Assembly (NCBI GenBank): GCA_950295325.1
Contig: OX485803.1
Coordinates: 72,741,554 to 72,805,553 of the forward strand
Length of the DNA: 64,000 nt
DNA from: Polytrichum commune
Taxonomy: Eukaryota > Streptophyta > Polytrichopsida > Polytrichales > Polytrichaceae
Reading direction: 5' to 3'
The notes below the pieces were generated by a model. The model had not been told where the DNA came from. It was given only the letters and a program-made list of their open reading frames with translations, and did not search any database. Position numbers and translations under genes: made by a program. Shown here in pieces: positions 24,506-44,171 of this stretch. The first letter of the stretch is position 1. The number at the start of each line of letters is the position of its first letter.

Positions 24506-26135
24506 TAGCATTGTGTAGTTCCACACGAAATATCATATTTGGTGTACTTATGCTATTTGGGTAAAAAATGATACTCTTAGTAAAATATCATTGCATTGCG
24601 TAACTCCAAATGGTAACCCACGCTAATCAGACAAAACAATGTAGCTTGTGAAATCAATTGCATGGTCGCATTGGCTTTAAGCCCAATTGGATGACTAATT
24701 GTGGCCATGAAATTTGAACATGAGCACAACGGAAACCCCTTATAGTTCAATATCCTTTCTTTTCTAAACAAATCTAACCTTAGAGACCCCAATTGGACTA
24801 ATTAAATTAAATTGGAATGAATCAACCACAAACCTACAGGGGCCATCAAATTTTTAATGGACCCTCTTACATGGCCATCATGGCTCCTAACCTTGTAGCA
24901 CCCACGCATACGTCAATGGTTTTGGTCCATCTAAGCACTACATTAGCACAATGTGTATTATGCACATTTTGCTCAAATCATAAAGGGCCAAAGCATGGTA
25001 AGTGAACAAAAGTTGTACCTTGTCAATTTAGAGGTGCAAGTAGTCATATTTCCTAGTTATAGAACTCAAAAAAATAATTATGATTCATGTTAAAGTAATT
25101 AATAAGGTGGGTCATGATGTTTTCATAAATATATTTGCAAACTACATGATTTACATCTATAGAAGTAGATTCTAAAGTTTGGAGAATCTACGTATAATTG
25201 TTGATTTTTGGAAATGAGGGTGAAATAGACCTTAAGAAAATACATTTTGCTTTAAAATTTGTGGCGCACTAACATACAATATGATCTTGCCAAATACTTA
25301 AACCGTACACACAAATCATAACAAATTTTGAAATGAAGTAGGTTTTAGTTGAAATAGACCACCCAATTTGGGATCTACTTCATATGTATCTTCATAATAC
25401 TAATGAGGCACATTTTTGTACTATGTTTGATCCAAACCCAATGGAGGGCTCCATGATCTCGAAATGACATTTTGTATAGAATTGAGCCTACTTCCCTTAC
25501 CATATATGAAATTGGATCATAGTGGAAGGGCATACCACTTTTCTTGTTCACTTTACCATGTTTTGACCCTAAACACTTATGGTAGGTACTATGAAATAGC
25601 TCATTGTCATTTATAAATTAAGATGTATATTGCAAATATGTTCAATCTAGATCTAGAAACAACCTAACTTTAGCTCTTGGGGAGGTCACTTGTTGTAGGA
25701 TATCAAAAACCACATGTGAAAAATATAGGATGGAACACTATATTCAGTAATTGGAGACTTTTTGTTGATTATGAGACTATATAAGGATGCACTTTTCAAA
25801 ATTGGACCAGTAATGACGACTAAAAATCCCATATGTATAATGGTATGCTACTATTATTATACATAAAGGCATGAAAGTGAACAAAAATGTGAGGCATACA
25901 TGAAAATAGTTGCGTATGAAATGACAACTCGTTATGAATGGAAGGGAAGATGCGAAGAATGAATGGAAGTTGAATGAATTAATTGGGATTGAAATACAAT
26001 TATAATGGAAATACCATCAATGTCTTGAGTAACTTGGAATAGCATAGAAAGTAAGCACTTAAATATGTTCTACACCTAAGCCCATTTAGGGAGTCCGTCC
26101 CACTAGAACGCTTCTAGTCACACTAGTCCGACCCA
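24506..26135. other. AT-rich intergenic stretch, left flank of the 15-kb element
   Basis: No gene seen. No obvious terminal inverted repeat or target duplication was found at the left boundary of the 26-41 kb block. Confidence 0.4.
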
Positions 26136-26444
26136 CTATTTTTTTTCCGCGGCCTTGTCCTTGTTTTTGGCAGCCTCCATGGCCCTGAAAATCTCCGGCC
26201 CGCGGCTATAACCGTTTCTGTTAGCGGACCCGGAATACCCGCCGTTCTTCCAAATTTCCGGACGCGCTCCCAAATTGTGGGGAGTGGTATTGTGAGTGGA
26301 ATACGAGTGCGTTTGCGAGAGGGAATGTCTTGCGCTACGGCGGAGGGCCAAACAACGATCGGACTCGGATGATGCGGCCTTGAGGGCGTGCCTATCCAAG
26401 GAGGACGTGGAGGAGGGCCGGGCACCAAGCGAGCGGGTAGCCAC
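26136..26444 (-). CDS. Exon 7: C-terminal exon
   Basis: 102 codons plus stop, VATRSLGARPSSTSSLDRHA to AAKNKDKAAEKK, after acceptor TTTCGCAG. Gly/Asn/Ser-rich with a Lys-rich tail, probably disordered. Phase 0 with exon 6. Confidence 0.6.
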   Translation of the reverse strand: MATRSLGARPSSTSSLDRHALKAASSESDRCLALRRSARHSLSQTHSYSTHNTTPHNLGARPEIWKNGGYSGSANRNGYSRGPEIFRAMEAAKNKDKAAEKK

Positions 26445-29400
26445 CTGCGAAACAACGTCATAGGAAGATAAAAATAGGAATGGAGTGGGGAAAATAATGA
26501 GGGCGGTTTGGGATGGGCGCTCGTAAAGAGAACGGCACGCAAACGGAAGACAAGGAAAGCAAAAGCGGGAAAGGGGTTTAGGGTTGAGGAGGGCACCTTG
26601 GCTTTGGGGACCTCCACGCGGGGAACGGTGGGAACGAGGGGGGCGTCGACGGGGGCATCCGGAGCCGATGGAACTATTGCACTGTTGAATGGTGGGGGGG
26701 AGTCGAGGCGTGGAGGGCCCACGATAGCGGAGGACGTTGCGGGGGGAGGAACGGACTCGGCGGGGGAGGTGTGGCAACGGGGGCCTTCCATGCGGAGACG
26801 CCGGCTCGGCCCGCGACGAGCGACGACGTCATCCTTAGAGGGCGAGAGGTGCCCCAAACGAACGAGCGTCCGTTTCTCCTTGGAGAGGGGGGAGGGCGAC
26901 GGGGCGTACGCGCGGGCGACAAGTGCTGGGGGCGGGCTGTTGACGACGCCGTCGTCGATGCCGACGTCGCGGGAGTAATCCACGGCCGAGGCCGCGTCGA
27001 CCGCCGAGAACTGGTAGAGGGATGGCATTTGGAAGTCCGTGACGTCGCGGGAAGGGGAGCGAGGGGGCGATTTGGGACAGGAAGGGCCGTCGAGTACCGG
27101 GGCGTCACATATGGGGGCAGACTAAGGAGGCCAACAACAACAACAACAAAAACAACAAAAACAGACATCCAAAAACAGAGCAAGCATTAGATATGTGAAC
27201 CACATGATAACAAGCAAAGACATGGAGGAATTTCAAATCAATTTATTGAATTTGGCGAGCCTCATGATGCTCTTATATACATTATCGCGGGGGCTTAGTG
27301 CCGCATTGCCGAAGGGGTTGGACCTAACAAAAAATGGGATGCTACCGGCGTGGAGCACGAGCCTTCTAAGGTAGGGGGCTAGCCTATCGACCAAAAATGT
27401 GTCTTGCCTATCGCCGGTCCAAGTGTCCGGGAAGATGACGTTGCCCGGGGGGTTCAAGACGCTCTTGGTGGGGCTGTCGTCGATGAGGAGGGTGTTCTCA
27501 GGAGTCGGCCACCACCCGTGGGGTGTCCCCTGCAGCCGGGGGACGCCTCGCCATAGTTTGGAGTGGAGGACCTTGAGGAACTGTTGTCCTCCGCCCCGAC
27601 CGCCAAACTTGGGCACCGGTCGGCCTTTCTCGTCGAGCAGCTTGTCGCAGTCCTCTTGGCCGAGGACGAGGCAAGGGCTCTGGAGATCACGGAACAAGAA
27701 ATCCACGATGGACTCCATGTTCTCCATGACCATGGAGCTCCACACAATGACGTGTGCGAACTCGACCACCTCGCGAAGGAAGTCGCGCAGGCCGGGATGG
27801 GCGCGGACAGCCTTGCGGTTTATGAGGGTGTCGAGCTCGCCGTCATAGTCCCTTTCGTCGGGGTGACGGAAGGGACGCGTGTGGACCTTGGGGATGTGTT
27901 GGGTGTGACACAAGACCCCATTGAGGTCAAAAACTATGAAAGGCTTGTTCCAAGTGTGAGGTCCACTGGTCGAGGGGTTGCGACCTATCTCCGGGGGGTC
28001 CTGTGATGAACAACGCGACTAGTTTAATGCTATGATCCAATAATGAAATTTTTGCGTAGAAAATGAAGACGATGCATTATGGGAAAAGACGAGGAAGTGA
28101 GGAGAGTGCAAGGAAAATGTGCACAAGGGCACACTTGCGAACGACCGTTCGTGAATGAAGGCTGCACGGGCGGTGCATTTACGAGCGGTCGTTCGTGAAG
28201 GAGGTGGACACGGGGTCGCACCCTTTCACGAACGAGCGTTCGTGAATGAGGTGGATACACAAGAATGAACATAATCGCATCAACATCCACAATATACGAG
28301 AAGGGGTCGAGGGCAAAGAATTTGAAGCAATGCAATGCAGATAACATGGGCCCATATATTAATCCGTTGAGTATTTACATTTCTCACATGATAGTCTATC
28401 ACATTTTCCTAAGGCAAAATGATGCCGTGTCCTACAAAACTGGTCGTCCATAAGCGGGGTCGGTGAAGAGGGCTCGCGTGGGCCAGGGGGTGTCGATGAA
28501 GAGAAAAACACCGCGATGTTAGTGAGGTTACGAATGCGCGTTCGCAAAAAATGGTATTCTCATAGGAGATTTACCTCGTCATCGGGGGGAGGGGAAGCGG
28601 CGCTGGACCGAGCAGCAGGTCCCTCCTCAATGATTAACGAACGCGCGTTCGTAACCTCCACAGCCACAGCTGCCTCCGTTTCCATGGCGTCGGCCTCACG
28701 CTCCGACTGAGAGGCATGTGTATGCTGGATGCGCAGCACGTTGTCATCCTCGGCGCCTAGGTCGAGCGCGTCCATCCGGACATCCTCCATCCACGCGGCA
28801 GGGGTCTCTTCCACGTCCATCCCTTGCACTCCTGCTGCGTCATTGGGGCTCCCCTGCGTGTCCTCCACAATGATCATGTCAGTGTGTCGCGCAGAGTCAT
28901 CGCCCTGTCTGTGTACTACCCTGGGGACGACGGTGAAAGAGGTTGTTTCGGTGTCTGTGGACAGTCCTACCCTTGAAGGGGGAGGGGTGAGGACTGCAGG
29001 ACCTGAAGATTCACGAACGCGCGTTCGTAAATCTTCGTCCTCCTGGATGGCCGCCGCGACAGCATCGTGGGAGGTGGTCGACGGAACTTCTGGGGGCGGA
29101 GGAGTCCCAACAGGCGTAGGGTGGGGCGCGGATTGGTGTGATGGTCCTCCTGGGAAATGGCCCTGCGGGGGGTACTGGCCCTGCGGTGGGTATTGGCCTG
29201 GCGGGGGGTATTGCGATGGGTATCCTCCAGGGAAGGGGTAAGCCGGCTGGGGGGGCGCCGAGAAGCTCTGCATCTTGTTGAGCATGGCGAGGATGGCGTC
29301 CGTTTTCATGTTGGATTGCCTTAGCTCCTCCTGAATTGCTCTCATCTTCTTCGCATTCTCCTCAGCAGCCTTCGCCATGTCCTCTTTCATCTTCTGCTCG

Positions 29401-32400
29401 AGCTTGGCGTTAAGCTCGGCGACGGAAAGGGCCTCCTCCTTGACCCGCTTGTTCTTGTCGAAGTCGGCCCCTTGCTCGACCATTATCTCCATATCTCCCT
29501 CGTCCTCGTCGGAGACCTCGATGATTGCCCCCGGAGGCAGCTCCACGTAGGGGGTCTTCCTCATCTTCTGCCTAGTGTTGCGGAAGTGGTCCAACGACGG
29601 GCGGGAGCGTTGGTCCAGAAGGTCGAGGTTCTCCATCTTGGGAACCACGACTGGCCTGGGCAACACCGATGTCGAGCATCCCCCGGGAGTGCCGAATGCC
29701 TCCGCCCCAGACGTTCGCGCGGGGAAGACATCTTGGGTTGTCCCCGCGGACAACCCCGTGTATCCACCCGGAGTCCCCTGCACGTCGGATGGGTTTCCCG
29801 ACGGCCCCAAAATTCGCAGAGGCGTGACGTCCAAGGATCGGATGATCGCCTCGACGTTGTAGGAGGGCGCGGGCTCATCGTCGTCCGTCTCCATGGCGGG
29901 CATGCCCTCGTCGATGGGCATGTTGATGTCCGTCCTTGGGAGGGACATGTCCTCCAGGTCCATCGTGGAGGCCTTCGCCCTGTGCACCTGGGAGTCCTCG
30001 TCGACGGCGTCAACGAAGTTGTTGACGACCAGGCCCAACATTTGAGATCCAAGCAAATATGTTAGAATATACGAACGTACGTTCGTAAAAATCAACGACG
30101 AAAAACAATGTCATCAAACACCAAAACAGGTTGAGGTGAACTTTACGAACGAGCGTTCGTAAATATCAGTTGGAGAGCTTACCATCGCAGCGTACATGAA
30201 CTTGCTGCCTCCACAAACATTGTACACGGTCTCTCCGCTTATTGCCACGCTTTGCAACACGGAGACGTAGAACTCCAACCTGAGTTCCAGCGTCGGGAAG
30301 ACAGTGTACAACGTCTCCTGCAGCAGATCCTTGGGAGGGGATGGGGGATGCTATAGATCTTCTTGAACATAGTATTTGCCCTGACAGGGGCTCGCCCATT
30401 CCGAAGCGCGTTGTACGTCAAGAAAACGAGGCTGACCGCCCCCACCTGTTTGTTTCCCCTGGCCTCGTTGATGGCCACGATCCCTTCCGTCTTGGCGGGC
30501 ACGTAAGTGCTGTGGAAGATGTTGTACTCGAATTTGATCGTCCTCTCGTACAGGTCGACTACAGCAGAGAGCTTCTCCTGCTCCACTATCCACAGCCAAA
30601 CGTGAGGCTCCCTCATGTCCGGCGACTTGTGCTCCTTGAACTTGGCCATGAAGGGGTTGTAGAAGGGCATGTCCTTCCCCCCCTGCCTCGACGCACCGGG
30701 GATCCCCCTGAAATCGATCGGGGCAAATGGGCACCCCCGTCGATCCTCCCTCACCTCCGCCCTGTTGAGGGTCCCGTCCCACTTGGAAAATGTGACCCTC
30801 TCCACTCCGGTTGTCACCAAACAAAATCTGGCCACTCCTTCGAATGTGGCCATCCTCTTCCGCGCCAAAAACCTTTTGTATTGCTCCACCTCCTGGGGAT
30901 CCGTCTCGGTTTTCTTTGTCCTCTTGTTCCCCTTCTGCTTCAAAATGGAGGCGTGCTCCTTGACAAGACAACGCATTGAGGCTCCGGAGATGTTGTAGTC
31001 GACCTTGAACATCTTCCAGCTAGCCCAATTAATGTCCCCGTCGGCTAGGATGAGTGCGTACTCTAGTATTAGGGCGCTCAACTCCCTCATTGCAACAGTC
31101 TTCAGCTTGCAGTGTTCGCACCATTTCTTGATGGAATACGTGCCGGGCTTGTGTCTTGGCCTCTTCAAAAATATCTTCGGGTATGGGATGGTTCTTCCCA
31201 CTGTGTTCCCAAGAAGATGGACCGCGCACCTCTGCAACTCGGACTCTGTTAACCCTTGAAGGGACCTGAAGAACTCCCTCAGTAGTGGAGGGGCCTCCCC
31301 GGTCTTTTCCGCGCTGTATTTCTCCTCGGTGTCGGGGTTGACCAAATCGCCCGAGCTGTGCGCATCAAAAAATTGTGTCCACAACTCCCAAGTGTCCCTG
31401 TTGCAACACATGAGGCGGAGCTCACCCTTGAGCTCCAGGACAGACTTGGTGGATGTGGATTTCATATCGATGGAGGAGAACTTGTCCACCATCGCGTCGC
31501 AGAATGCCTGCAGCAAGAAAGGCATCAGTAATGCACAAAATACGAACGCACGTTCGTAAATTTGAATGTCAAAGAACTTCAAAATTTGAATGTCAGAGAT
31601 ATTTACGAACGTTCGTTCGTAAACTCACCTTCCATTGTGGAGATGGCGTCTTCGCGTTCTCCCTTTCTTTAGGGGGGCACCCGTGGGCGACCCAGACGTC
31701 CCTTGCAGCCACTATGTTGGCTGCCCACGACGCCTCGAAGGCCTTGATCTTGTTGCCGGAGTTGAGGAAGGTGGAAATCTTCCGCAGTTTGTCCCAATCG
31801 TCCGACCACACCAAGAACGTCTTCCAGTAGCGCAAGTCTGCCTTCAACTCATGCTGGAAGTTGTCGTCCTTGAGGATTATCTGGGACGCCTCCAAGCTGT
31901 GTTGTCCGTCTATAATCCAGAACTCTCCATTCTGGATCCGTGGCCAGTCCTTCTCCGTCGGACGGGATGTCAGCCCCTTCGGCATGACGCAGACGGTCTG
32001 CCTATCCCACTTGACATTGTTCATTAGATTATTGATCTGCCACTTCACACCACCGCTCTCGCGAGACCGAACCACCCATTTGTTGGGGGACATCTCGCAC
32101 TTGAAGCAGTCCACGTTGAATGTGAAGTGGCGTCTCATGGGCCAAAAATCCTTCGAGTAGTTGTTGAAGTCTCGAAGGATCCTCGTGGCCTTCATAGCGT
32201 CAGGGTTCTCGCCCTTTTTCAAGAGGGTAGGCATTACGACAGGCGAGGTCACCTCCGCGGTCTCTGTTACTCCCGATTTCTCCATCTCATCCCTTGTCCT
32301 CTTCGATGGCGTGGAGTGTCTGCTGGGGCCCTCCGTCGCCCTGCTCGCGGAAGGCACAGGCCTGGGTGCACTTCTAGATCCTCCTGCCCCTGATGTGGAT

Positions 32401-33973
32401 GGTTTCCTGGGGCTCTTCTTCTTGTTGTTGGCCTCAGTGACCACACTGTTGTACTTGGAGATGTTCAATGCAAGGGCGGTCAATTTCCTTGCCGTCCAGT
32501 ATGGGCTCAACGCATATTTGGAGAAGAGGCCGTCCAGGTCGAAGTGCTTGGCATCTTCGACTACGTTCATTTGGGCGTATTGGTAGGAGAAGGTATGTTT
32601 TTGGTAATGCAATAGGAGGTTGATATGATCTTTCTTGTCCAGAATTACATACTCCCCCTGGGCCTCTATGGACTCTATCTCCCACGTCTTCATTTGAACC
32701 CACTGTTCGGGTTGGTCCGGTCTTGTCTCCAGCTCGTAGGTGAATCGCATGCAGAAGAGGCCGTCTGCGGACTTCTCTGGCAGAGCCGTCCACTCCCCCA
32801 TGAAGTCCTCCTTGGGGACAAAGTTGTTGTTGCCGTTATCGTCGGACACCGACTCTGGGAGGCGATCGACCTGCACCGCGAACATCTCAATCGCGCTTCT
32901 GCTTGATCTTGCCATCTGCAACATAATATAAACATTTAGTGTTGAGTTTACGGATGAGCGTTCGTAAACGACATGCAAATCCAAGATACTACTCATTATG
33001 AATGTATTTGTTGCAATACATTTTGATTATATTTACGAACGATCGTTCGTAAAGGAGGTGGTTTTCTGGGTTGTTTTTTCACATTTCAGACCATCTTCAC
33101 AATAAAATAAATGTTTACAATAGTAATTATGAACGTTCGTTCGTGAGTGATACCCACCAGGCCCGACACTACTATCTGCATTTTGGGTTTGGTTGCATAA
33201 AATAAGTCATTCATCTATTTGATTCAGAATCTTTTCATCATATTTTACGAACGATCGTTCGTAAATAAATGTGTTTTGGTCGGTTAAATTAAGATTGCAC
33301 TCTTTTACGAACGCGCGTTCGTAAATAGGTATTCATATTTAAATATTTCTAAGTAATTGTGTATTTGGTTTAAATATATTACAAGGGGATTGGGTATTTG
33401 GTTTGATTTTTCAATTGTTTAATTGTGACGATATTGTGGTAAATATGTTGGTTTTCCCAGCTTACTTTACGAACGCGCATTCGTAATGTTCTGGATTTGT
33501 GCATTGGGTTTAGGGTATTTACGAACGATCGTTCGTAAATTGCTTGGCTAGTGCTTTAGGGTGCGGGTATTTACGAACGAGCGTTCGTAAAATTGGTTGT
33601 CAGACTATGTATTCGCATTTACGAACGATCGTTCGTAAATGTGGCTAATTTGGATATTTTCTTGCATATTGTTCGTACATATACGTATTCGTATATGTAC
33701 GAATACGTATACGGTGGACTATACTTCTTGCCCTCGCAAGAATGCTTGCAAGTGCTTGGCCAGAATGGTTGAATTGAAGAAAAAAAAAAAAAATCAAAAC
33801 ACAATTGAACTTCAGAATGAATATCAAAGCTCAGAATGCATGCAAAACCTGCCAAAGCTCATAATACAAACGAAACAAATAGAAATCAACAATGAACCAA
33901 TTGAAGATGTGGGTTGTGAGTTTAGAAGGATTGATGGACTCACATTGAAGTGTTCTAAACCCAAATTGTTCAT
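26136..33973 (-). CDS. Large seven-exon gene: ParB/DGQHR-like, coiled-coil, FCP1-like HAD protein
   Basis: Proposed exons (minus strand order): E1 33979-33944, E2 32915-31629, E3 31507-30183, E4 30041-28575, E5 28000-27281, E6 27121-26597, E7 26444-26136 (stop TAG). Every junction is phase 0, which supports one transcript of about 1,890 codons. Donors are GTGAGT, GTGAGT, GTAAGC, GTAAAT, GTATAT and GTGCCC. Acceptors are TTGCAG, CTGCAG, missing for E4, CACAG, CTTAG and CGCAG. Domain order: ParB/DGQHR-like motif (E2), unknown (E3), coiled coil and Tyr/Pro/Gln repeats (E4), FCP1/SCP-like HAD (E5), disordered tail (E6-E7). E3 has an apparent 1-nt deletion at 30333-30335. Codon third positions are G/C-rich, unlike the flanks. 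It could instead be two or three genes, with E5-E7 as a separate phosphatase gene. It lies divergent to the + strand gene at 37.9 kb. Confidence 0.55.
26597..27121 (-). CDS. Exon 6: Pro/Ala-rich, probably disordered
   Basis: 175 codons, SAPICDAPVLDGPSCPKSPP to PRVEVPKAK, after the acceptor GGCCTCCTTAG preceded by a T/G-rich tract. Contains MPSLYQFSAVDAASAVDYSR and many Pro and basic residues. No recognised domain. The donor GTGCCC is weak. The opposite-strand frames in this GC-rich stretch are shadows. Confidence 0.6.
27281..28000 (-). CDS. Exon 5: FCP1/SCP-like HAD phosphatase domain
   Basis: 240 codons starting DPPEIGRNPSTSGPHTWNK after CATCACAG. KPFIVFDLNGVLCHT is the HAD motif I region; FCP1/SCP phosphatases have DxDxT there, here D-L-N-G-V, so the second Asp is lost. 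VRAHPGLRDFLREVVEFAHV and IVWSSMVMENMESIVDFLF follow, matching the family's motif II area (W-S/T-S). Then NTLLIDDSPTKSVLNPPGNV is the motif III/IV region (LIDDS). Family proteins dephosphorylate the RNA polymerase II tail or related targets. With the altered nucleophile motif, activity here is uncertain. DLNG variants are common in plant HAD relatives, so this may be a captured host domain. Confidence 0.8.
28137..28545. repeat. Dyad motif cluster, intron E4/E5 (4 copies)
   Basis: Copies of ACGAACG-NN-CGTTCGT at 28137, 28181 (one arm mismatch), 28228 (perfect, extended with TTC/GAA) and 28530 (two mismatches). All lie in the proposed intron 28001-28574 of the large gene, or alternatively in the promoter of a separate phosphatase gene. 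Confidence 0.85.
28575..30041 (-). CDS. Exon 4: coiled coil plus Tyr/Pro/Gln repeat tract
   Basis: 489 codons from MLGLVVNNFVDAV to SPPPDDE before GTAAAT. An acidic region is followed by a predicted coiled coil (AELNAKLEQKMKEDMAKAAE then ENAKKMRAIQEELRQ), then repeats of QYPPQG in YPSQYPPPGQYPPQGQYPPQ, then a Ser/Pro-rich acidic tail. No AG acceptor precedes the ATG: the sequence is GGATCTCAA|ATG where CAG is expected. The acceptor may have mutated, or this exon may start a separate transcript. Two dyad motifs lie inside the coding sequence (28637 and 29013), in different reading frames. Confidence 0.75.
28637..29028. repeat. Dyad motif, two copies inside exon 4
   Basis: Perfect cores with central CG at 28637-28652 and 29013-29028. 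On the coding strand they read TNARS and RTRVRE, that is, in two different frames, so the DNA palindrome rather than the peptide appears to be what is kept. Confidence 0.85.
30071..30160. repeat. Dyad motif, two copies in intron E3/E4
   Basis: Cores at 30071-30086 (centre TA) and 30145-30160 (centre AG, flanked by TTT/AAA). The second lies about 20 nt inside the donor GTAAGC. Confidence 0.9.
30183..31507 (-). CDS. Exon 3: unidentified globular region with a frameshift
   Basis: Begins AFCDAMVDKFSS after CTTGCTGCAG and ends SKFMYAAM before GTAAGC. It is continuous to ...FKKIYSIPHPLP, where the frame breaks. Restoring frame needs one extra base in the GGG run at 30333-30335 (plus strand), after which DLLQETLYTVFPTLELRLEF and then YVSVLQSVAISGETVYNV continue without stops to the donor. 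Exon length is 1,325 nt, one short of a multiple of three, as expected for a single deletion. A Lys-rich KQKGNKRTKK stretch is visible. I recognise no domain. The break could be genuine decay or an assembly error. Confidence 0.7.
31542..31620. repeat. Dyad motif, two copies in the 121-nt intron E2/E3
   Basis: Cores at 31542-31557 (centre CA) and 31605-31620 (centre TT, flanked TTT/AAA). The second begins directly inside the donor: the intron starts GTGAGTTTACGAACG. Two dyads take up about a third of this short intron (31508-31628). Confidence 0.9.
31629..32915 (-). CDS. Exon 2: ParB/DGQHR-like domain
   Basis: 429 codons beginning MARSSRSAIEMF directly after TTGCAG (acceptor at 32916). About residues 1-165 are a globular, unidentified region. 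Residues about 175-235 are a basic Ser/Pro linker with nuclear-localisation character (NNKKKSPRKPS, SKRTRDE). The last 180 residues include GEFWIIDGQHSLEASQIIL followed by LNSGNKIKAFEASW. The IDGQHxLxA segment matches the signature of ParB-like/DGQHR-type nucleases and DndB-like proteins (family knowledge), with Ser in place of the usual Arg. The exon ends QWK before GTGAGT. Function is unproven; binding or cleavage of DNA is plausible. Confidence 0.75.
32950..33636. repeat. Dyad motif array (9 copies) in the proposed first coding intron
   Basis: Cores start at 32950 (degenerate), 33035, 33129, 33247, 33307, 33469, 33521, 33573 and 33621, most flanked by TTTA/TAAA. Centres include AT, TT, CG and AG. 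Spacing is irregular (48-162 bp), unlike a tandem satellite. They fill the 1.03-kb interval 32916-33943 upstream of exon 2. Confidence 0.9.
33672..33703. repeat. Inverted repeat, 14-bp arms, 4-nt loop
   Basis: TTCGTACATATACG / CGTATATGTACGAA around TATT. The outer TTCGTAC/GTACGAA resembles half of the neighbouring dyads but the structure is different. It lies at the edge of the dyad array. Confidence 0.8.
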
Positions 33974-33979
33974 GGCTTG
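33944..33979 (-). CDS. Exon 1 of the large gene (tentative start exon)
   Basis: After TTTTTTCAG at 33980-33988 the exon reads CAAGCC then ATG (33973) AACAATTTGGG, encoding MNNLGLEHFN, then the donor GTGAGT (33938-33943). It joins in frame to MARSSRS of exon 2. The upstream acceptor implies a non-coding 5' exon in the 34.0-34.4 kb region. Supported only by splice signals and phase. Confidence 0.4.
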
Positions 33980-36102
33980 CTGAAAAAACACAAAACTACA
34001 CACAAATCTACAATGCTGGTTGTTGAGATGCGCCCTTGCACCACTCACTCCTTTATCACAGTTTCAAGCCCTCACTCTTTATGTGCAAACCCTATCACCT
34101 ATTCTGGTGCAGCTACAAGCTTCAAGCTTCAAGCTTTCAAACCCCAATATTGCAACTCTTCAGCTCTACTAACATTCTTACAACCCTCAAGCTCTCTACT
34201 CACAAACAGTCAATTCTAAAGCAAAATATGCAACTCTCAAACACAAGTTGATGCAAAAATGAAGAAGGCTCTAAAATCTGCAAGAGCTTCGCTCTGAATA
34301 CGCTAAGCTCTCCGCTCCTCCTCTCTCGGTTCCAAATGACAATGAGGAGAGAGAAGGGGTGCGGGGTGGTAGCCGCCGCTGCCGCTAGGGTTTCCCCATG
34401 GCTGCCACGTGGCGACGTTCCAATGTCGACAGTCCATTGGCGCCCTTCCATTGGCGTCGTTCCACGTGGCATGTGGAGGGGTGCGGGGATGGGTGGAGAT
34501 GGGTGATGGGGGAAATGGGAGGAGATAGGATGGGGACATCGGGGGATGGGGGGAAATACGATGGGAGATGGATGTAGAAGTAATCATGAAGGCAATACAA
34601 AGCATATGTATATGTATAATATGGGATGGAAGCATTAATCACAATAACTTCAAGAGCTTAATATGAAGACATGAATTTTGTGTGCCGTGTCCCCTTAGTA
34701 CCTTTACATTTGTATTCCTTGTAAACATATTTTCAAAAACAACTTTAAGTTAATGAGTATTGCACAATGTATGTCATTTAGTGGGTTTTCGATGAAGAAT
34801 CCACTCCCAAGGATGTGGATATGGTGTTCTGAAGTATAGAGTTTTCATGAACGAGATAACTTTCAAGTTGAACCATGGTTCTTCAAATATATATTACATA
34901 GTACATAAAGGACCCAATTTGACATTGTTGAGAGGGGGCTATTCGTTTTCTTGCAAGAGATGGAGGACGTCAATTAATTTAATTAGGTGTCAAATTGAAC
35001 TAACAATCGTATAGTGCATTGAACTTTAATTTTTAACAATGATGTAATTGCATTTAACCAATGAGCCATATTGGTCATTATTTCGCTAGCATCAAATGTA
35101 TGATATCATAGGTTTTCAATGAAGAATCCACCCCTAAGGATGTGTACATGAGGTTTTCAATTATACCGTTTTCGGAAACGAGATTTCTTTCAATTTGAAC
35201 CATGGTTTCTCAAATAAATATTACATTCATAAAGGACCAATTTGACATTGTGGATAACGGCTACCATCAACTGTCAGTTTCATAAGTTTAGTTAGTGCGA
35301 TACAAGGTCTTTAGGAGTCAATATTGTTTGTGTGTGTAATGTAACGTATTAACGACCACACCACAAACCCTAAACCCTAACCCTAAACCCTAAACCTTGC
35401 ATTCCTACATTTTTTTTCTTCTTACCAACCTTTCTTAATATATGTGTCCATGTTGTGGTCTATGGGCATGTCAAAGTGGTCTATCGATGTTGGTTGGATT
35501 GGAAATTGCTTTATTCGGTTCCCAATAACTATAATAATTGAGAATCATGCCAATAATTGTCATTTTGAGATTCAAAATTAATGGAGTTCGGATAAAGCTT
35601 TGGTTCGGGTGAAAAGTGAGTGTTGAAATGCTCCATCTCTCCCCTTAATAGTATTGAGTGTTATTTGATCACACAATCCAAACTTAATCTCATGATTATA
35701 ACATGCATGTCTTAAGACTTTAGTTTAAATCAACACTTTCAGCTATGAGCATGCACATACTTCTCGTAGGATGTAAAACACATAATTCTAAGTGTGACTT
35801 GTCGTAAGTATGGTTTCATTTCTTATGATTACTCTATCAAATTCACCATTCCAAATTAATTAAACATTTCCACACATGCCATTTTAATGCATTATTTTGA
35901 CACGTATGGCTACATTTGAATTAAGCCCTAACTTACATCTAGATATGATTAGTTCATTGTGGATTAACCCAACTTTTTAATGGTTTTCACGCGCTTGGTG
36001 AGCATATTACGGGCATGTTTCGATGTGAATCATATGATCATCCCTATAATTTTAGGGGCCTCCACAACATGTTTTTACTCGAGTTTACCTTAATATTGTG
36101 TA

Positions 36103-36134
<32 letters not shown>

Positions 36135-36430
36135 CACACACACACAATCACATACATTCATAGCATATATTAGGTCTCCATTGTTAATTAACTTGGACTT
36201 CACACCTTGGTCGCAAATCAGTTAATATTATGTATTAACCAGCATCATATTTTGACATTATATATCTATTATGTACATATTTATATTCATGACACCTTGG
36301 TAACACCTAAGGTATGCGACCGATTTACATATTTTCAATATCATGTTGCGTGCATGCAATACATGTCCCTTACATAATGCTATTTATATAATTACGCATG
36401 CATGAAATGTCATATTGGTAGGTCAAAGTA
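33980..36430. other. Spacer between the two divergent genes
   Basis: 33980-34400 probably holds the promoter and 5' leader of the minus-strand gene (acceptor at 33980, no dyads). 34782-35108 and 35109-35260 are related (GAAGAATCCAC..., period about 327 bp). 35365-35396 is an interstitial telomere-like stretch. 36097-36147 is a TG/TA/CA microsatellite that can fold on itself. No coding sequence recognised. Confidence 0.5.
35365..35396 (+). repeat. Short interstitial telomeric repeat
   Basis: Four to five units of CCCTAAA/CCCTAA, the plant telomere sequence in C-rich orientation. Confidence 0.85.
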
Positions 36431-36472
36431 GGCGGCGGGAATCCGCTTTTTAAAGAGCATCCAAGGGATTTT

Positions 36473-36606
36473 GAACCCCCGTAGAGAAGTACTTAAAGCT
36501 CTTCCCCCACAACAAAGTTCTTTTCAACGGCAGACGCCGTGTGCGCTCCAGACCCGACGGAGCGCGCGGAAGCCATTGTCCTGTCCGCCAACCCCACACC
36601 TCCCAG
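36473..36606 (+). CDS. Possible 5' exon of the + strand element gene
   Basis: Between a TGA and a GTACAG donor-like site the frame reads EKYLKLFPHNKVLFNGRRRV then RSRPDGARGSHCPVRQPHTS, which looks like coding sequence. There is no ATG in the open part, so it would need an upstream exon or be internal. The next dyads (36659 onward) would then lie in a following intron, as in the minus-strand gene. Speculative. Confidence 0.3.
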
Positions 36607-36658
36607 GTACAGGACAAACTGTAGACTCCGTATATACCGCCGTAAATACTGGAGGTTT

Positions 36659-36786
36659 ACGAACACGCGTTCGTAAAGCATACGTTATGGCAAATAAATG
36701 GGTCAGAGAAATGGTGGGTAGTTCACGAACGTGCGTTCGTAAGTACAATATATGAGCACACTCTGCGTTCAGAGACAGAGAGAAAG

Positions 36787-36847
<61 letters not shown>

Positions 36848-37170
36848 CAGATATGGGTCGTCATATGAACTGTGCATATAACTAGTTATATGTACTGAGA
36901 ACATGTCGGTGATATACGAACGTGCGTTCGTAAATATGACATCCAGGATCATAGAGATGTGGGTCTGTAATTATCCCTCGTGCCCGTTTTCTCCAAATGC
37001 ATATAGGATTGACCACAACTTACGAACGTGCGTTCGTAAGGACGACCTGAGATTTATGTCCACGCATGCAGCAACATCATTCATCGACGTCTAGGTATGT
37101 CTCGTATTTCCCACACGTCCAGATGAACCGTATGAAATTAGATTCTCCCAATTCACGAACGTTCGTTCGT
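36659..37170. repeat. Dyad motif cluster 5' of the + strand gene (5 copies)
   Basis: Cores at 36659 (one mismatch), 36725, 36916, 37022 and 37155. The centre is TG in three of them and TT in the last. Confidence 0.9.
36787..36844. repeat. (AT)n(GT)n microsatellite
   Basis: About 28 bp of AT repeat followed by about 30 bp of GT repeat. Confidence 0.9.
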
Positions 37171-37256
37171 AAATACCACCTGGGAGTATGTCCATCGCAT
37201 CCAACACTAGACTTACAGACACCTTCCTGCATATAACCAAAGTATGACAGATAGAT

Positions 37257-37778
37257 ACGAACAGTCGTTCGTAAATATGCCGTCCCATTATTTACTATGG
37301 TACGACGTGATGTGGTACACCCTATCATTTCCCCGACAGAGGGTGGCATGTATTCAGAAAACGTATGGTCGGAGTTGTCACAATGTCGACGTGTGAAAGG
37401 GTTTTTTACATCTATTGTTTTTCCAAAAACTTACGAACGGTCGTTCGTAAATATGCCGTCCCATTATTTACAAGGGAACGACGTGATGTGGTACACCCTA
37501 TCATTTCCCCGACAGAAGGTGGCATGTCTTCAGAAAACGTATGGCCTGAGTTATCACAATGTCGACGTGTCAAAGTGTTTTTTACATCTACTGTTTTTCC
37601 AAAAACTTACGAACGGTCGTTCGTATACATAACCGCCTCAAACATTTTGCTATGGTTGGACAACAACTCATATCGACACCCTTCACGAATAATATATAAC
37701 TTAATGCCGGTGTCAAATGCCGTGGGAATCCCATGCAATTTTTCCATGTCTTCATATTGTTTTCGAACGTGCGTTCGT
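37257..37778. repeat. Dyad motif cluster near the + strand gene start (4 copies)
   Basis: Cores at 37257 (one mismatch), 37433 and 37609 (identical, centre GT) and 37763 (outer base changed). The two identical copies belong to the 176-bp duplication. Confidence 0.9.
37273..37624 (+). repeat. 176-bp tandem duplication, each unit ending in a dyad
   Basis: Units 37273-37448 and 37449-37624 both start AAATATGCCGTCCCATTATT and end with the ACGAACGGTCGTTCGT dyad. A preceding dyad (37257) marks the left border, so duplication boundaries coincide with dyads. Confidence 0.85.
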
Positions 37779-37921
37779 CTTTGTGTGTGAGGCCTTCCCA
37801 TGGATGCCCCAAGAGTTGTTTGTGATTTCTGGGCCATATATTTTGACAAATAATTTGTGCGTTCTTTTAAACATTGGGATGGGTGTTGTTTGTTCATGCC
37901 ATGGTTGTTTGTTTAGGAACA

Positions 37922-40900
37922 ATGGCGATGCATGTGGGATATATTTCATTGGAGTTGTCGACTAGTGCATCGTCCTCCGATAGTGAACGCGAACTAACGT
38001 TGACGTCGGCGGACGGTACTGACATGACAAATGTGCTGGGGGTGCTTGTGGATGCATCCTCCCATGATTCTTTTGAAGGGCATGAACAATGTCTACATTC
38101 CGGTGATGACATTCCATTGTGTGCGGGTTTTGGAAGAGAGGAATGGGTGGGCCTTGATGTCGTTCTACTTAACGAGCTTGGTGTCCCGGTGGCAAATGGC
38201 ATATGTAGAAACTCCGATCCCCGTGAATGTGTGGATGCCAACCCCCTCGGTGCCGATGATGTTGGTGTGTGCATCTTGAATTCTTTGCTTCCACTCGAGG
38301 TTCCGGTGACGTGGAGATTTTCCTTATGTCGATGGCCCCTTCGTCGCGTTCTCCATGAAGAAGTAAGCTTGTGGGATCATGGGCGGCGGCACAAACAAGC
38401 GAAATCAGCTTTGTTGGCCAAATTACCTCCTTGCAAAGGCCTCCGCAGATATGCTTCTAACCGCGTGCCTCGCGGTGATAAGGAGCGACGACGGGATTGC
38501 ATATTGGGAGACGATTCTATCCGTCTCGTGTCCGCCAAGGACTGTTGCGCGAGGAAATGTTGCCAATTCTTCCCACGCGAAAAAATTAGGTCACTTCGTG
38601 AAGAGATGTGGCTTGCGGATTTTCGTATGAGATCCGCAAAGAAACTCGAGGTGCACAGAAATTTGCACCTTGATACCCATGGTCATAAGGTGGTGACCCT
38701 TGAAAATGTCAAAGTGTGTTGTACGGCATGGTATATCATCCATACTGTCTCCAAGGCTGATTTTTATAGGTTTAGGAAGTATTCATCGTTGGGTCGCCGC
38801 TCTCGATTTCATGGCAACTCGGGCACAAAGAAACCTAGGGAGGCTACACTACAAGCCTCGGCGACACTCTCCACCATTATAGTGTCATTGGCCGATGCAA
38901 TGCCCCACAAGACGAGGACATTGTCAACAGGGGATAAAGTTGTTCAAATGGTGTTGCCCACGGGCACAAAATGGAAGAACATCTTAACGGACATCAACGA
39001 AGTAGGTCGCAGAGAGGGATGTGGGCCCATTTCTTTGTCCAAGTTGAATGTGATTAAAAACCAACAGTTTGCTGAATACATTTTGAAGAGACCTGGTGAC
39101 AAGTTCGCTAGGTGTACGGCGTGTGAGAAATACAAAGGTCTTCGAGACGCCTACCCCATTGATACTGAATCCCATACTAGACACCAAAAAAAATATATTG
39201 AGCATGTGAACAATCAAGAGGCACACCGCCAAGATTACTACAAGAACCGTGCACTATCTATAATGAGGCCGACAGAGGTTCTCACAGTCATCCATGATAA
39301 AGTGGACCACGCCAAGACCGCATGCCCTTGTTATGCACGCAAAATAAAGGCCACGGATGGTCTCTTCAAGTTGCCCATAGCTGTCACAGGTTTGTAAGAA
39401 ATCACAACGATGTGTTGAAAGTCTCTCCATTTTTCTTGGGTGTGTTTGGCAAATGTCCAACATCATACATCAGTTTAGTGGTTATTTCATTTTTGTTGTT
39501 CACGCATCGTTTGTTTTTTCTAGGTATGATTGCCCATGGCCATGTGGACGTTAAGTATGCCCATTATGGGTTGGATTTTTACCCTGGCGATGCAAACCAC
39601 ACGGTGGGTTCATTTGCAAAACTCTTGCGCGATCTTGAGAAGCCGCCGGTACATTTTTCGCGTGCACTTTTTGATGGTTGTGGAACGACACCCCTTTATG
39701 AGGCAGTGCTTGCGGGGAAGGAGGTTTGTATGTCGTCATTACCAGAACCACCCGCAGAACCCATTTGTGCTAAATCATTGCCTCCAACTCTCCACGTTCA
39801 ACTTGATAATTGTGCGAAAGACAACAAATGTCGATACGTATTTTGTTTTTGGTCATTGTTCGTGGCGAAAGGAATCTTCAAAGAGGTGTTTGTGTCTTTC
39901 TTGATGGTGGGACACACACTCGACAACATTGATGCGTCATTCGGGCGTTGGAGCATGAAGTTGCATGAGGAAGATTTTCCGACCATACCACTTCTTATGA
40001 AATCATATATGGATTTAGACCATATGCCGGTGATCCCGCACATGATTGAGGAAGTACCAAATTTCAAGGCCTTCATCAAGCCATACATGTTGAAGGGAGG
40101 GGACCGTTTGGTGGGACATACCAAAGCACAACAATTCCGATTCTATATGAGGGATGATGGTGTCCCGGCTATGCAGTTCAAGCTTTTGTGCACATCTGCT
40201 AATTGGGGCCCGGATGATGGTATACTCGTATGGCGTCAAGACAAGGATGGGAAATGCTTGCTCCCGGATGGCGAACCAATGCCTTGCAAACCCGACCCCA
40301 TGAGGAATGGGCCAGAAATCATCAAAGTCATATCCGGATTCATTGAGTATTGGAAAGAGTTGTGCGAGGAGGACATCACCAGATGTGTTAGAGATACCCA
40401 TGAACCGTTGATCGCGTATTGGGATCGCATTCGAACGGCCTTGATGACACTTGGTGGCGACACCCGTACGACTTTGACACAAGGATTTTGGCCACAGAAT
40501 CGTTTGTCGGTTGTCGAGTCTGAAACAATGTTTTTCAGCAATGGAGACATTCGTGAAGAGTTCGCAATGGACGAGCATTACGTTGGCCCTGCGCGCAATC
40601 GGCCGGCCCCGTCGTTTCGTGTAGGTGTTGATTGCCACGAAGGTTATATGGTCCTCGTACGAGCAGGGGATGAGGAGCATCCCAAGCCAATTTGGTTGGT
40701 GAAAGCATTGTCTTCACCCAATTTTGTTCGAACTAGCCCCAACTTTCGTCAAATTGAGGTGGAATATTGCCATCCAAGCACCAAAGACCAGAACGTGCTT
40801 CGCACCTATTTAGGTTGGGACACGAAAAAGAATTTCAAGTGGACAGTGGACTCAGCGTACGGACCAGTTTGGATAAACACGAATACCATACTTTGTGCTT

Positions 40901-41049
40901 GGAAGCCGCGCAAGGGTTCCAAATCAGAAACAATGACCATCCCCCAAAAACATATAGATTTTGCCAAAGACAACGTGGCACGTATTGCAGCTGCGGAAAA
41001 TGATGCCGAGAATGGATATGAAGCGGAAGATGGAGATGGAGAAACTTAA
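37922..41049 (+). CDS. Two-exon gene, DUF7869-like (transposon-derived?) protein, 997 aa
   Basis: Exon 1 37922-39389, intron 39390-39523 (CACAG|GTTTGT ... TTCTAG|GTATG, phase 1), exon 2 39524-41049. The junction reads LPIAVTG-MIAHGHVDVKYA without a break. I start at the ATG of MAMHVGYISLEL, which follows an acceptor-like TTTGTTTAG. The frame is open further upstream but that part is probably intron. Visible parts: an acidic Ser-rich N-terminus; KDCCARKCCQFFP (from about residue 206), a Cys-rich putative zinc site; basic KKPREATLQ; HVQLDNCAKDNKCRYVFCFW (580-599) and VGHTLDNIDASFGRWS (618-633), whose DN and D/D residues look like an RNase-H-fold acidic core; an acidic tail. I recall such proteins as DUF7869-type, repeated in moss, lycophyte and animal genomes. 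No stop or frameshift seen, so it may be functional. Divergent partner of the large minus-strand gene. Confidence 0.8.
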
Positions 41050-43058
41050 CATAGGTGGGAATGAATGGGGAAAAGCATGGGCACTTAGTAAACTTTGTTT
41101 TTAATAGACTTAGTAGAGTTGTTAAATTCAATTGTGATATACGTTTGGGATGTGCCATCCAATTCCATAAGACCTTATGTATGGGATGCACACCCTAAAC
41201 TTTATAATGACATAAAACCATTTTTTTTAGATTCAATTGTTATTTTCCACATGTAATTCATCTTTTCATTATAATTCAAGATCTTACTATTATTAGTAAG
41301 TTGAATATTCTTCACGTGTGATTTTGTAAACCATCATGTTCCTTATGTTCCCAATGTTCCGTATGCTCACAATATTGGCATCCCAAACTATGCGCATATT
41401 TTATTTTGAGACTTTCCAAAGTCTCCGATTAACGAATATAGTGTTATGGACTAAAATTTAAAGAGTAAAATTTATACAACAATTAATATAAATATAGGGT
41501 ACTGGAGATCGGTTCTCAAAACTTAAAATTTGTGTTCCAAGAATATTCATCGAATATATGGAACACCCCATGAATGTGTGCATTACTTCATTGCCCTCCC
41601 TTGAAAACACCCATTTGTCACACGTGGTTTGTATTCCTACAACAGAGCTCCCCCCAGGCTTTGGCTAGATACACATGCTAACTTTCATATATCCACAAAA
41701 CTGAATTTCTAAATTACATACTTCATGTATAATTGCATATATACTGTGACGTACTATTTCAGAAGAAAAATGGGATGGAGTCAGCCTTAGGACTAATATG
41801 TGGCACATATTAATCTACACTCCGTACCCAACATTTTCCCAACATCAGGGTCAAATGCATGATTGCTTCACAATCAGATCCATTTGCATATTCATCAAGT
41901 GTTTTTCACGGAACTCTATATAGTACTTCAACACTATGGTCAGAACATGTTTTTAATGTCACCCAATGAGTGCAACATGGTATAACTTAATTAGCACCAA
42001 ATTGGCCCACCGCAAGGAAATTTTTGTGCACCCTTTGAAAGAAAATGCATGGACCTCTTGTGGAAACTACACATACAGATTCCTACTTTCCGCCAACTAG
42101 ATACCAGATGCTACACGCTGCAGCCTAGCCACTTAAGTAGTAATTAAGCAGTGCCCAATGCTTGCAGAGCACTATAAGAGAGACTTTCTTATCATAATAT
42201 GAACAAGTAGCAACCTCTAAAATATCGTAACTTCACCGGGCTTGCTAGATAAATCATTGTTGTATGTGGTTAACCTAATTTGCCATTATGTATAGCATAA
42301 ACAAACAACTATTAATATGATCCACTTTGAGGAGGCACTACCAAGTATGGTTTAATTGTCCTTAAACTAGTAGTGTGACCTCAAGTAGTAGTCTAATATT
42401 GTTTGCACAAGAATCAGCTCAACCTGGATTTTCTGGAGGATTGCCCCTATGGGGCGGTGCATACACAACATGTAAGCTTTGTGCATGCAATTTTCAAATG
42501 CCTGAGTGGGGCATAGTCGAGGTTGCAAATCCTTCAACAGTGGTGTGTGCGGGATTACCAGAAACTATGTTCTCTCCCATGTTGTGCGACAAAATGAATT
42601 CAGATGGAAGGCTCATTGGACTTCGAGGTACAAATCAAGTGCACTCTGTTGATTGACGCATGATGAGTGCCAACACAAGCATTGCGAATCTAGCCATCAA
42701 TACAAAAGAAGACAAACATTCTAGTAAAATGAAGTAGTGGAGTCAAGCGGCAACGGGTGACATTATAAATTTGAGGACTTCAAAGTCCGTTCACATTGGG
42801 AGCTACACGCTACTAAGTTGACTGCAACTTCTAACTCAATTGAGATTTTTTGCTAACTGTTTTTTTGGGAGATTTCGAATACTTATTCCCTTGATGTAAT
42901 TTATAAACACGAGAAAGCTTGCGTAGACATGGTGACAATTATGCTTTTGGCACCCCAATGAATGTAGTTTTCATGAACGGCTCAATTTGTATCTTTCTTT
43001 AAGGTTAGGTGCTCGACAAGTATATGAGGTGGTGGTTGGTTGAGAATTTCTCTTTATT
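41050..43058. other. AT-rich intergenic stretch, right flank of the element
   Basis: No terminal repeat matching the left flank was found. The 93-aa frame at 42375-42656 has no ATG at its reported start and no motif. Confidence 0.4.
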
Positions 43059-43819: not shown

Positions 43820-44171
43820 CACATCTTCATTCGGCTGGGTCCCGCCCTTCCCACGCCTCCTTCACTATCCGGTCTTCTCCATGTTCCCTGCCCGCACCTG
43901 CATGGGAAATTTTCCTTGTTGGGAACCTATGTGACAATAAAATAACATGAAAATTACAAATATTGAAGTCCAGTCACTTAAGCCTTCACATGCCAAAGGA
44001 GCTTAATGGCTTAAATGATTGGGCTTGAATATTTGTGGTTTTGATATAATTTTATTGTTGCATTGGTTCCCAACGAGGAAGAGTTCCCATGCAGGTGCGG
44101 GCAGGGAACATGGGAAAGACTGGATAGTGAAGGAGGAATAGGAGAGGCGGGGCTAGCGGAATGAAGATGTG
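43820..44171. repeat. Long fold-back element, 352 bp
   Basis: CACATCTTCATTC at the left pairs with GAATGAAGATGTG at the right. Inner arms such as CATGTTCCCTGCCCGCACCT / AGGTGCGGGCAGGGAACATG and GGGAACC / GGTTCCC pair as well, down to AATATT...AATATT near the centre at about 43996. Almost the whole sequence is palindromic. Confidence 0.85.

Follow-up and report, generated by a model that had tools for sequence, protein, structure and literature searches.

Anti-silencing by transposon-encoded proteins has a proven precedent in Arabidopsis, the VANC proteins of VANDAL transposons, which are Mutator-like elements (PMC5735166). VANDAL families bear short family-specific motifs, placed in introns and between genes and rare in other transposons (PMC5735166), which are amplified as tandem repeats, and next to a transposase that is better conserved they encode a variable protein other than the transposase (PMC5735166, PMC10398659); in each of these respects the locus described here is alike. 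Mutator-like elements make a long target duplication of about 9 bp. TnpA, from the maize CACTA element En/Spm, is also a transposon-encoded activator of its own element, and this activation is correlated with demethylation (PMC10398659). The repeats bound by TnpA are subterminal in CACTA elements, which begin exactly at CACTA and make a 3-bp duplication. A third system for comparison is ParB–parS, with its palindromic sites.

The DNA analysed here, referred to as the window, is a stretch of 64,000 nt from Polytrichum commune (GCA_950295325.1, contig OX485803.1, 72,741,554-72,805,553 of the forward strand). It harbors a whole DNA transposon of 15,712 bp (25734-41445, + strand), recognized by its inverted ends, a flanking 4-bp duplication (ATGG) and ends shared with other copies. 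The terminal inverted repeats were found by an inverted-repeat search at 25734-25761 (left, + strand, AACACTATATTC...) and 41418-41445 (right, - strand). The left end has 556 candidate places in the genome, and the 40 that were scored are 98-100% identical; at the right end six copies, the window's included, are identical through AGTGTT and part just past it. A 4-bp target duplication accompanies 10 of the 11 insertions with both ends read, namely the window copy, seven of ten fetched end pairs, F502 and L035; the other three end pairs were left out of the count because no right end lay within the fetched piece. HC is the sole copy of the 11 without the duplication, its flanks (AACT/TCAT) being different. 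In every end read, CACTA is preceded by AA and TAGTG followed by TT. Membership of the CACTA (En/Spm) group, considered for the CACTA in these ends, is ruled out by this constant AA/TT and by the 4-bp duplications. Duplications of 4 bp are given by Sola, Ginger and Academ elements, and neither the literature on Sola nor PMC10294476 allowed a decision among the three, no reference sequence having been compared. A short telomere-type CCCTAAA run is found within the spacer of the element (35365-35397), and outside it the window contains a 144-nt inverted repeat at 43841-44151, 84% complementary and with 23 nt between its arms.

The initial annotation had spoken of two genes, a claim that is refined here to several reading frames of one DNA transposon. 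On the + strand there is one transposase-like gene, whose first part, T1 (37871-39394), comes from the ORF list and is conserved across families, and whose second part, T2 (39301-41046), contains DUF7869 (PF25273, E 1.3e-36, at about 39769-40194). A Pfam scan of T1 and T2 at E up to 1 returned only this domain plus DUF6582 below its cut-off, and no MULE transposase domain; DUF7869 itself is absent from the open-access literature searched. The - strand carries ORFs Z, C, B and A and a NIF-type phosphatase. ORF Z (26126-27121) has no Pfam match and has homologues in HC, F502 and F631. The phosphatase ORF (27236-28018; FCP/SCP-like, PF03031, E 5.1e-15) has homologues in F502, F539 and F631; it reads DLNGVL where the catalytic motif, usually DxDx(T/V) in such phosphatases, is expected. 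ORF C (28563-30110, stop to stop) is coiled-coil-like and of low complexity according to the ORF list and Pfam scan. ORF A (31629-32915), for which 89 genome matches were scored, encodes 429 aa including the motif IIDGQHSLEA and is the candidate site-binding protein. ORF B (30242-31507), whose frame slips near 30350 in the window copy relative to HC, is read, from the ORF list and comparison with relatives, as the second A-B exon. Splice signals (GTGAGT...TGCAG) and the same junction in relatives lead to the inference that A and B are two exons of one gene across a 121-bp intron (31508-31628, - strand).

ORF A is under purifying selection, with dN/dS of 0.14-0.19 in five comparisons with the window, among which HC and L011 share one A sequence; two further comparisons (L036 and F539) were saturated. 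No accepted DNA-binding domain was found in A, B or C, whose Pfam matches are sub-threshold only: in the window, N-SET for B (E 0.12, below the curated cut-off) and HAUS-augmin3 for C (E 0.00097, 19.1 bits vs a cut-off of 29.4), and in F539, YEATS for A (E 0.02) and KfrA_N, which is a DNA-binding domain, for C (E 1.2). All of these sub-threshold matches were excluded as evidence. DUF1985 and DUF287 gave no match in A, B or C of the window (E up to 1), nor in the F502, F539, F975 and L047 pieces (E up to 2), and a single-sequence fold of A alone reached a mean pLDDT of 33.9, a model too poor to use. Membership of the VANDAL or Mutator-like group is ruled out by the lack of a MULE or VANC domain together with the 4-bp duplication.

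The initial annotation listed 28 dyads in this region and interpreted them as binding sites for a dimer, with 2 bp between the half-sites. All 28 are present in the window, 19 of them exact with respect to ACGAACGNNCGTTCGT, seven with one mismatch and two with two; the extended site comprises 22 bp, TTTACGAACG-NN-CGTTCGTAAA. When up to three mismatches were allowed, 35 places were obtained, which are the 28 sites, five 3-mismatch matches offset by 4 bases onto sites already listed, and two overlapping places (26858 and 26862); shuffled sequence yielded a mean of 0.73 places and a maximum of 3. The claim that the motif occurs nowhere else in the window thus nearly held, with one exception, the one-mismatch place at 26858 (ACGAACGAGCGTCCGT; the overlapping 26862 has three mismatches), which is still inside the transposon. 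That dyad lies within ORF Z, outside the 9.6-kb block, and its right half is of the F539 type. The variable centre was confirmed for the window, with 8 different dinucleotides among the 19 exact sites, although the notion that it varies freely is weakened at fixed positions, since aligned intron centres are identical in 34 of 40 comparisons. The spacer is 2 bp in all six elements examined, and spacers of 0, 1 and 3-8 bp had no occurrence in these elements, each scanned with its own core. A count across the 407.8-Mb genome gave 5,602 occurrences of the window core with its 2-bp spacer (reversed control, 4) and none when the half-sites were set 3 bp apart (reversed control, 3).

It had also been proposed to scan the genome for the free-centre 16-mer, an even scatter without association to the genes being the outcome that would refute the reading. 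This outcome was not seen among the first 100 places: all 100 fall into six clusters (33+17+23+4+3+20) with parts of the element, four of which were fetched and contain element genes or ends in each case, while the other two have an ORF A match inside the cluster. The result covers these first 100 of the 5,602 places. Without binding data, sites for a dimeric protein remain the best-fitting reading, and this is supported by the strict 2-bp spacing, the varied centre, paired half-site changes between families and conservation beside diverged neighbours.

Within the element, 18 of the 28 sites lie between the divergent genes A-B and T, nine directly upstream of A-B (32950-33636) and nine directly upstream of the transposase-like gene (36659-37778). 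Four are found in the gap between the phosphatase and C (28137-28545; starts 28137, 28181, 28228 and 28530), two at the B-C junction (30071-30160), two in the inferred A-B intron (31542 and 31605) and two in the frame of C (28637 and 29013). The site at 30071 is in the open frame of C, yet upstream of its first ATG. In total 26 of the 28 are outside the inferred coding parts, a count that depends on gene starts and an A-B intron which are themselves inferred. Exact dyads are lacking within 1.5 kb of either end in all four complete elements, the distance to the closest one being 1.6-2.8 kb at the left end and 2.5-3.9 kb at the right; the one-mismatch place nearest to the left end of the window element is 26858, 1.1 kb away.

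One copy, L035 together with L075/L076 (C1:639070-648560), forms a complete element of 9.5 kb, which shares the ends described above and is flanked by a target duplication, CATA. In it A, B, C and T2 were not found at E up to 1e-3, and the remnants consist of a T1 fragment of 57 aa and a phosphatase fragment of 81 aa. It nevertheless keeps 33 exact dyad sites, in two expanded arrays flanking the same spacer. Therefore, as far as one copy allows, the sites seem to help the element in cis, with proteins supplied from elsewhere.

It could be argued that the dyads serve ordinary transcriptional control, a transposon regulator acting on its own divergent promoters and leaving host silencing unaffected. 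This explanation is possible, and the 18 sites between the two divergent genes favor it. However, the remaining sites occupy the A-B intron, C and intergenic sequence, at distances from the transposase gene that reach about 9 kb, the gene-less copy retains its 33 sites, and autoregulation needs less than the family-exclusive diversification described below.

The arms of the sites have persisted while their surroundings diverged. Both A-B intron sites are present not only in the window copy but also in L036 and in all seven of the seven copies whose A is at 85-88% (L057-L063). Of 11 such introns seven were tried and five were aligned (window, HC, L059, L061 and F631), L036 and L057 being missed by the pattern; 382 of 400 pair comparisons are identical in the arms (95.5%), vs 396 of 801 (49%) in the rest of the intron. 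Between the window and L036 only 31 of 102 fourfold sites are the same, so that neutral positions have nearly saturated, yet the arms persist. In F502, F539 and F692 the A-B junction likewise bears the dyad of the respective family, the A of F692 being only about 25% identical over the aligning part. In four elements, 40 sites with one or two mismatches contain 49 changes, 20 of them CpG transitions; of the 29 others, 21 are A to G or T to C. This pattern is compatible with methylation of old copies, which it does not show. An explanation by functionless dyads, spread solely by local duplication, can draw on tandem duplications that carry sites, such as the 176-bp duplication found by repeat search in the window (37256-37625), which copied a dyad site, and the 78-bp spacing of sites in F502. 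It is all but excluded by the high identity of the arms in an otherwise diverged intron, at a distance where fourfold sites are almost saturated.

Related families possess dyads of their own. Of 1,491 candidate DUF7869 matches 150 were scored, and from these twelve other loci were chosen for differing reading-frame length; about 6.5 kb of each was read and searched without a preset motif. A repeated dyad with a 2-bp spacer was found at nine of them, in eight cases unlike that of the window and in one, L050, identical to it (4 exact); the exact core of the window is absent from the other 11. The dyad CACGGGTG-NN-CACCCGTG is repeated in L039 and L041, with a near-identical form in L048; CACGGGCG-NN-CGCCCGTG is repeated in L040, TTGGGTCG-NN-CGACCCAA occurs in 17 copies in L042, L043 repeats a TTTACGGA dyad, and GTGAGGCA-NN-TGCCTCAC is repeated in L045 and L046. 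No repeated dyad was found in the approximately 6.5 kb read of L047, and L049 had none in the unbiased search and a single loose match in another scan. L044 had no repeated intact dyad in about 6.5 kb; half-site words (ATATGCCTCA, ATGCCTCACC, overlapping 10-mers) were observed there about 37-39 times, beside its distant DUF7869 gene. Genome counts against the reversed control are 10,011 vs 0 for the F502 type, 1,394 vs 1 for F539, 953 vs 0 for F692 and 203 vs 0 for F975. A family-exclusive motif concentrated in non-coding parts, which is one criterion of the sequence-specific anti-silencing class, is thus present. Recruitment of host-protein sites, independently by different transposon families, might be invoked because the transposon proteins lack a recognised DNA-binding domain, but it would need one host dimer per family, as the half-sites differ, the architecture is identical and controls are near zero; we regard it as very unlikely.

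The relation of the motif to the genes can be followed by comparing the window with two relatives. The transposase is similarly close in both, T1 being 80% identical to the window in F631 and 76% in F539, and T2 87% and 83% over the part covered. A is 81% identical in F631 and 42% in F539, and B 82% and 52%. Of the two, F631 carries the motif of the window, at 16 sites, and 0 sites of the F539 type; the F539 motif, TTTACGGACG, differs from the window's by one base per half. On this one informative comparison, of two families, the motif follows the A/B block rather than the transposase. The linkage cannot single out A, because the whole A-B-C-phosphatase block diverged together. The F539 motif is kept in three copies whose A is 76-78% identical to that of F539 (L064+L065, L067+L068 and L066), as well as in L070 (89%). 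The copy L069/L071, with A at 82%, has mostly F539-type sites mixed with others, which are a hybrid, a window-like site and a decayed window-like site in the intron. The hybrid and window-like dyads are located at L071 positions 1775 and 2586, in an F539-type element, and this mixture may represent a snapshot of specificity change, a possibility and no more. A second pair, F692 and F689, differs by one base per half-site, their transposases being 87% identical over 618 residues. In each half-site the window family and F539 are separated by an A-to-G step, F692 and F689 by a T-to-C step.

These data also bear on whether the dyads could be bound by the transposase, or by a co-factor of transposition, and be required in cis for excision or integration, in the way that TnpA sites are needed in cis in En/Spm. 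This remains possible, as the gene-less L035, with intact ends, keeps 33 sites that may aid an element mobile only in trans. Against it, no exact site is near the ends in four of four complete elements, sites occur in introns and promoters, and the motif does not track transposase divergence in the one informative comparison.

In the model we prefer, a dimeric protein made by the transposon itself would bind the 22-bp dyads, a reading that fits the strict spacing, the paired half-site changes, the conservation and the family exclusivity. The most likely binder is inferred to be the A-B gene product, each family having its own protein and its own site, which would change together. The bound protein would act on the non-coding parts of the element, that is, both divergent promoters, introns and intergenic gaps, and its most likely effect would be to shield that family alone from host silencing (DNA methylation), as VANC does for VANDAL. 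The data show that the dyads are family-specific and of one architecture, that they are conserved and where they lie, that they are linked to A/B and not to the transposase (in a single comparison), and that a gene-less copy retains them. The complete reading, a transposon-encoded dimer, likely A-B, that co-evolves with its sites and acts in sequence-specific anti-silencing, is in our judgement as likely to be wrong as right, binding and anti-silencing both being inferred. Anti-silencing, which is proposed by analogy and without methylation or expression data, is the less certain of the two parts, A-B as binder being the firmer. Against this reading stand the two of 28 sites in the frame of C, the loci L047 and L044 without a repeated dyad, and the mixed sites of L071.

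A bolder, ParB/parS-like version, which we consider unlikely, would have a QH-motif A-B protein load at the palindromes, spread and block silencing, the families evolving orthogonal protein-site pairs by one-base-per-half-site steps. If true, it would provide a natural series of orthogonal dimeric DNA readers. The preferred model of a co-evolving anti-silencing dimer, if correct, would add a further, independent case of self-recognition by a plant transposon, outside the Mutator group and with a palindromic site traceable base by base. How protein-site specificity evolves, and how general anti-silencing by transposons is, would then be directly testable in one genome, and orthogonal DNA-binding proteins for targeted epigenome editing could be obtained.

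No description of the present system was found in the open-access literature searched (titles and abstract starts), a search that did return VANC papers, reviews and other systems and that is no proof of absence. The earlier claim that no plant element had been described this way is refined accordingly, as the functional logic has its precedent in VANC/VANDAL of Arabidopsis (PMC5735166). As regards ParB, the IIDGQHSLEA motif of A resembles that of proteins of the ParB/DGQHR type; however, the D and G of DGQH are replaced in F692 (NRQH), A matched no Pfam family, A as a single sequence had no match to solved structures, and its profile retrieved solved structures at chance level only (Cas1, E 0.23; phage tape-measure protein, E 1). 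TnpA and CACTA elements differ in that the present element makes 4-bp duplications and has no exact subterminal dyads, the check having been limited to exact dyads and no other kind of repeat. With respect to VANC/VANDAL, the VANDAL motif is non-palindromic and of 8-9 bp, whereas the site here spans 22 bp and is palindromic around a 2-bp centre that varies; the proteins are unrelated, without MULE, DUF1985 or DUF287 match, and the element has inverted ends and 4-bp duplications, anti-silencing resting on analogy only. By that analogy, the system would embody an anti-silencing-like logic of the known VANC kind in an unrelated group of transposons.
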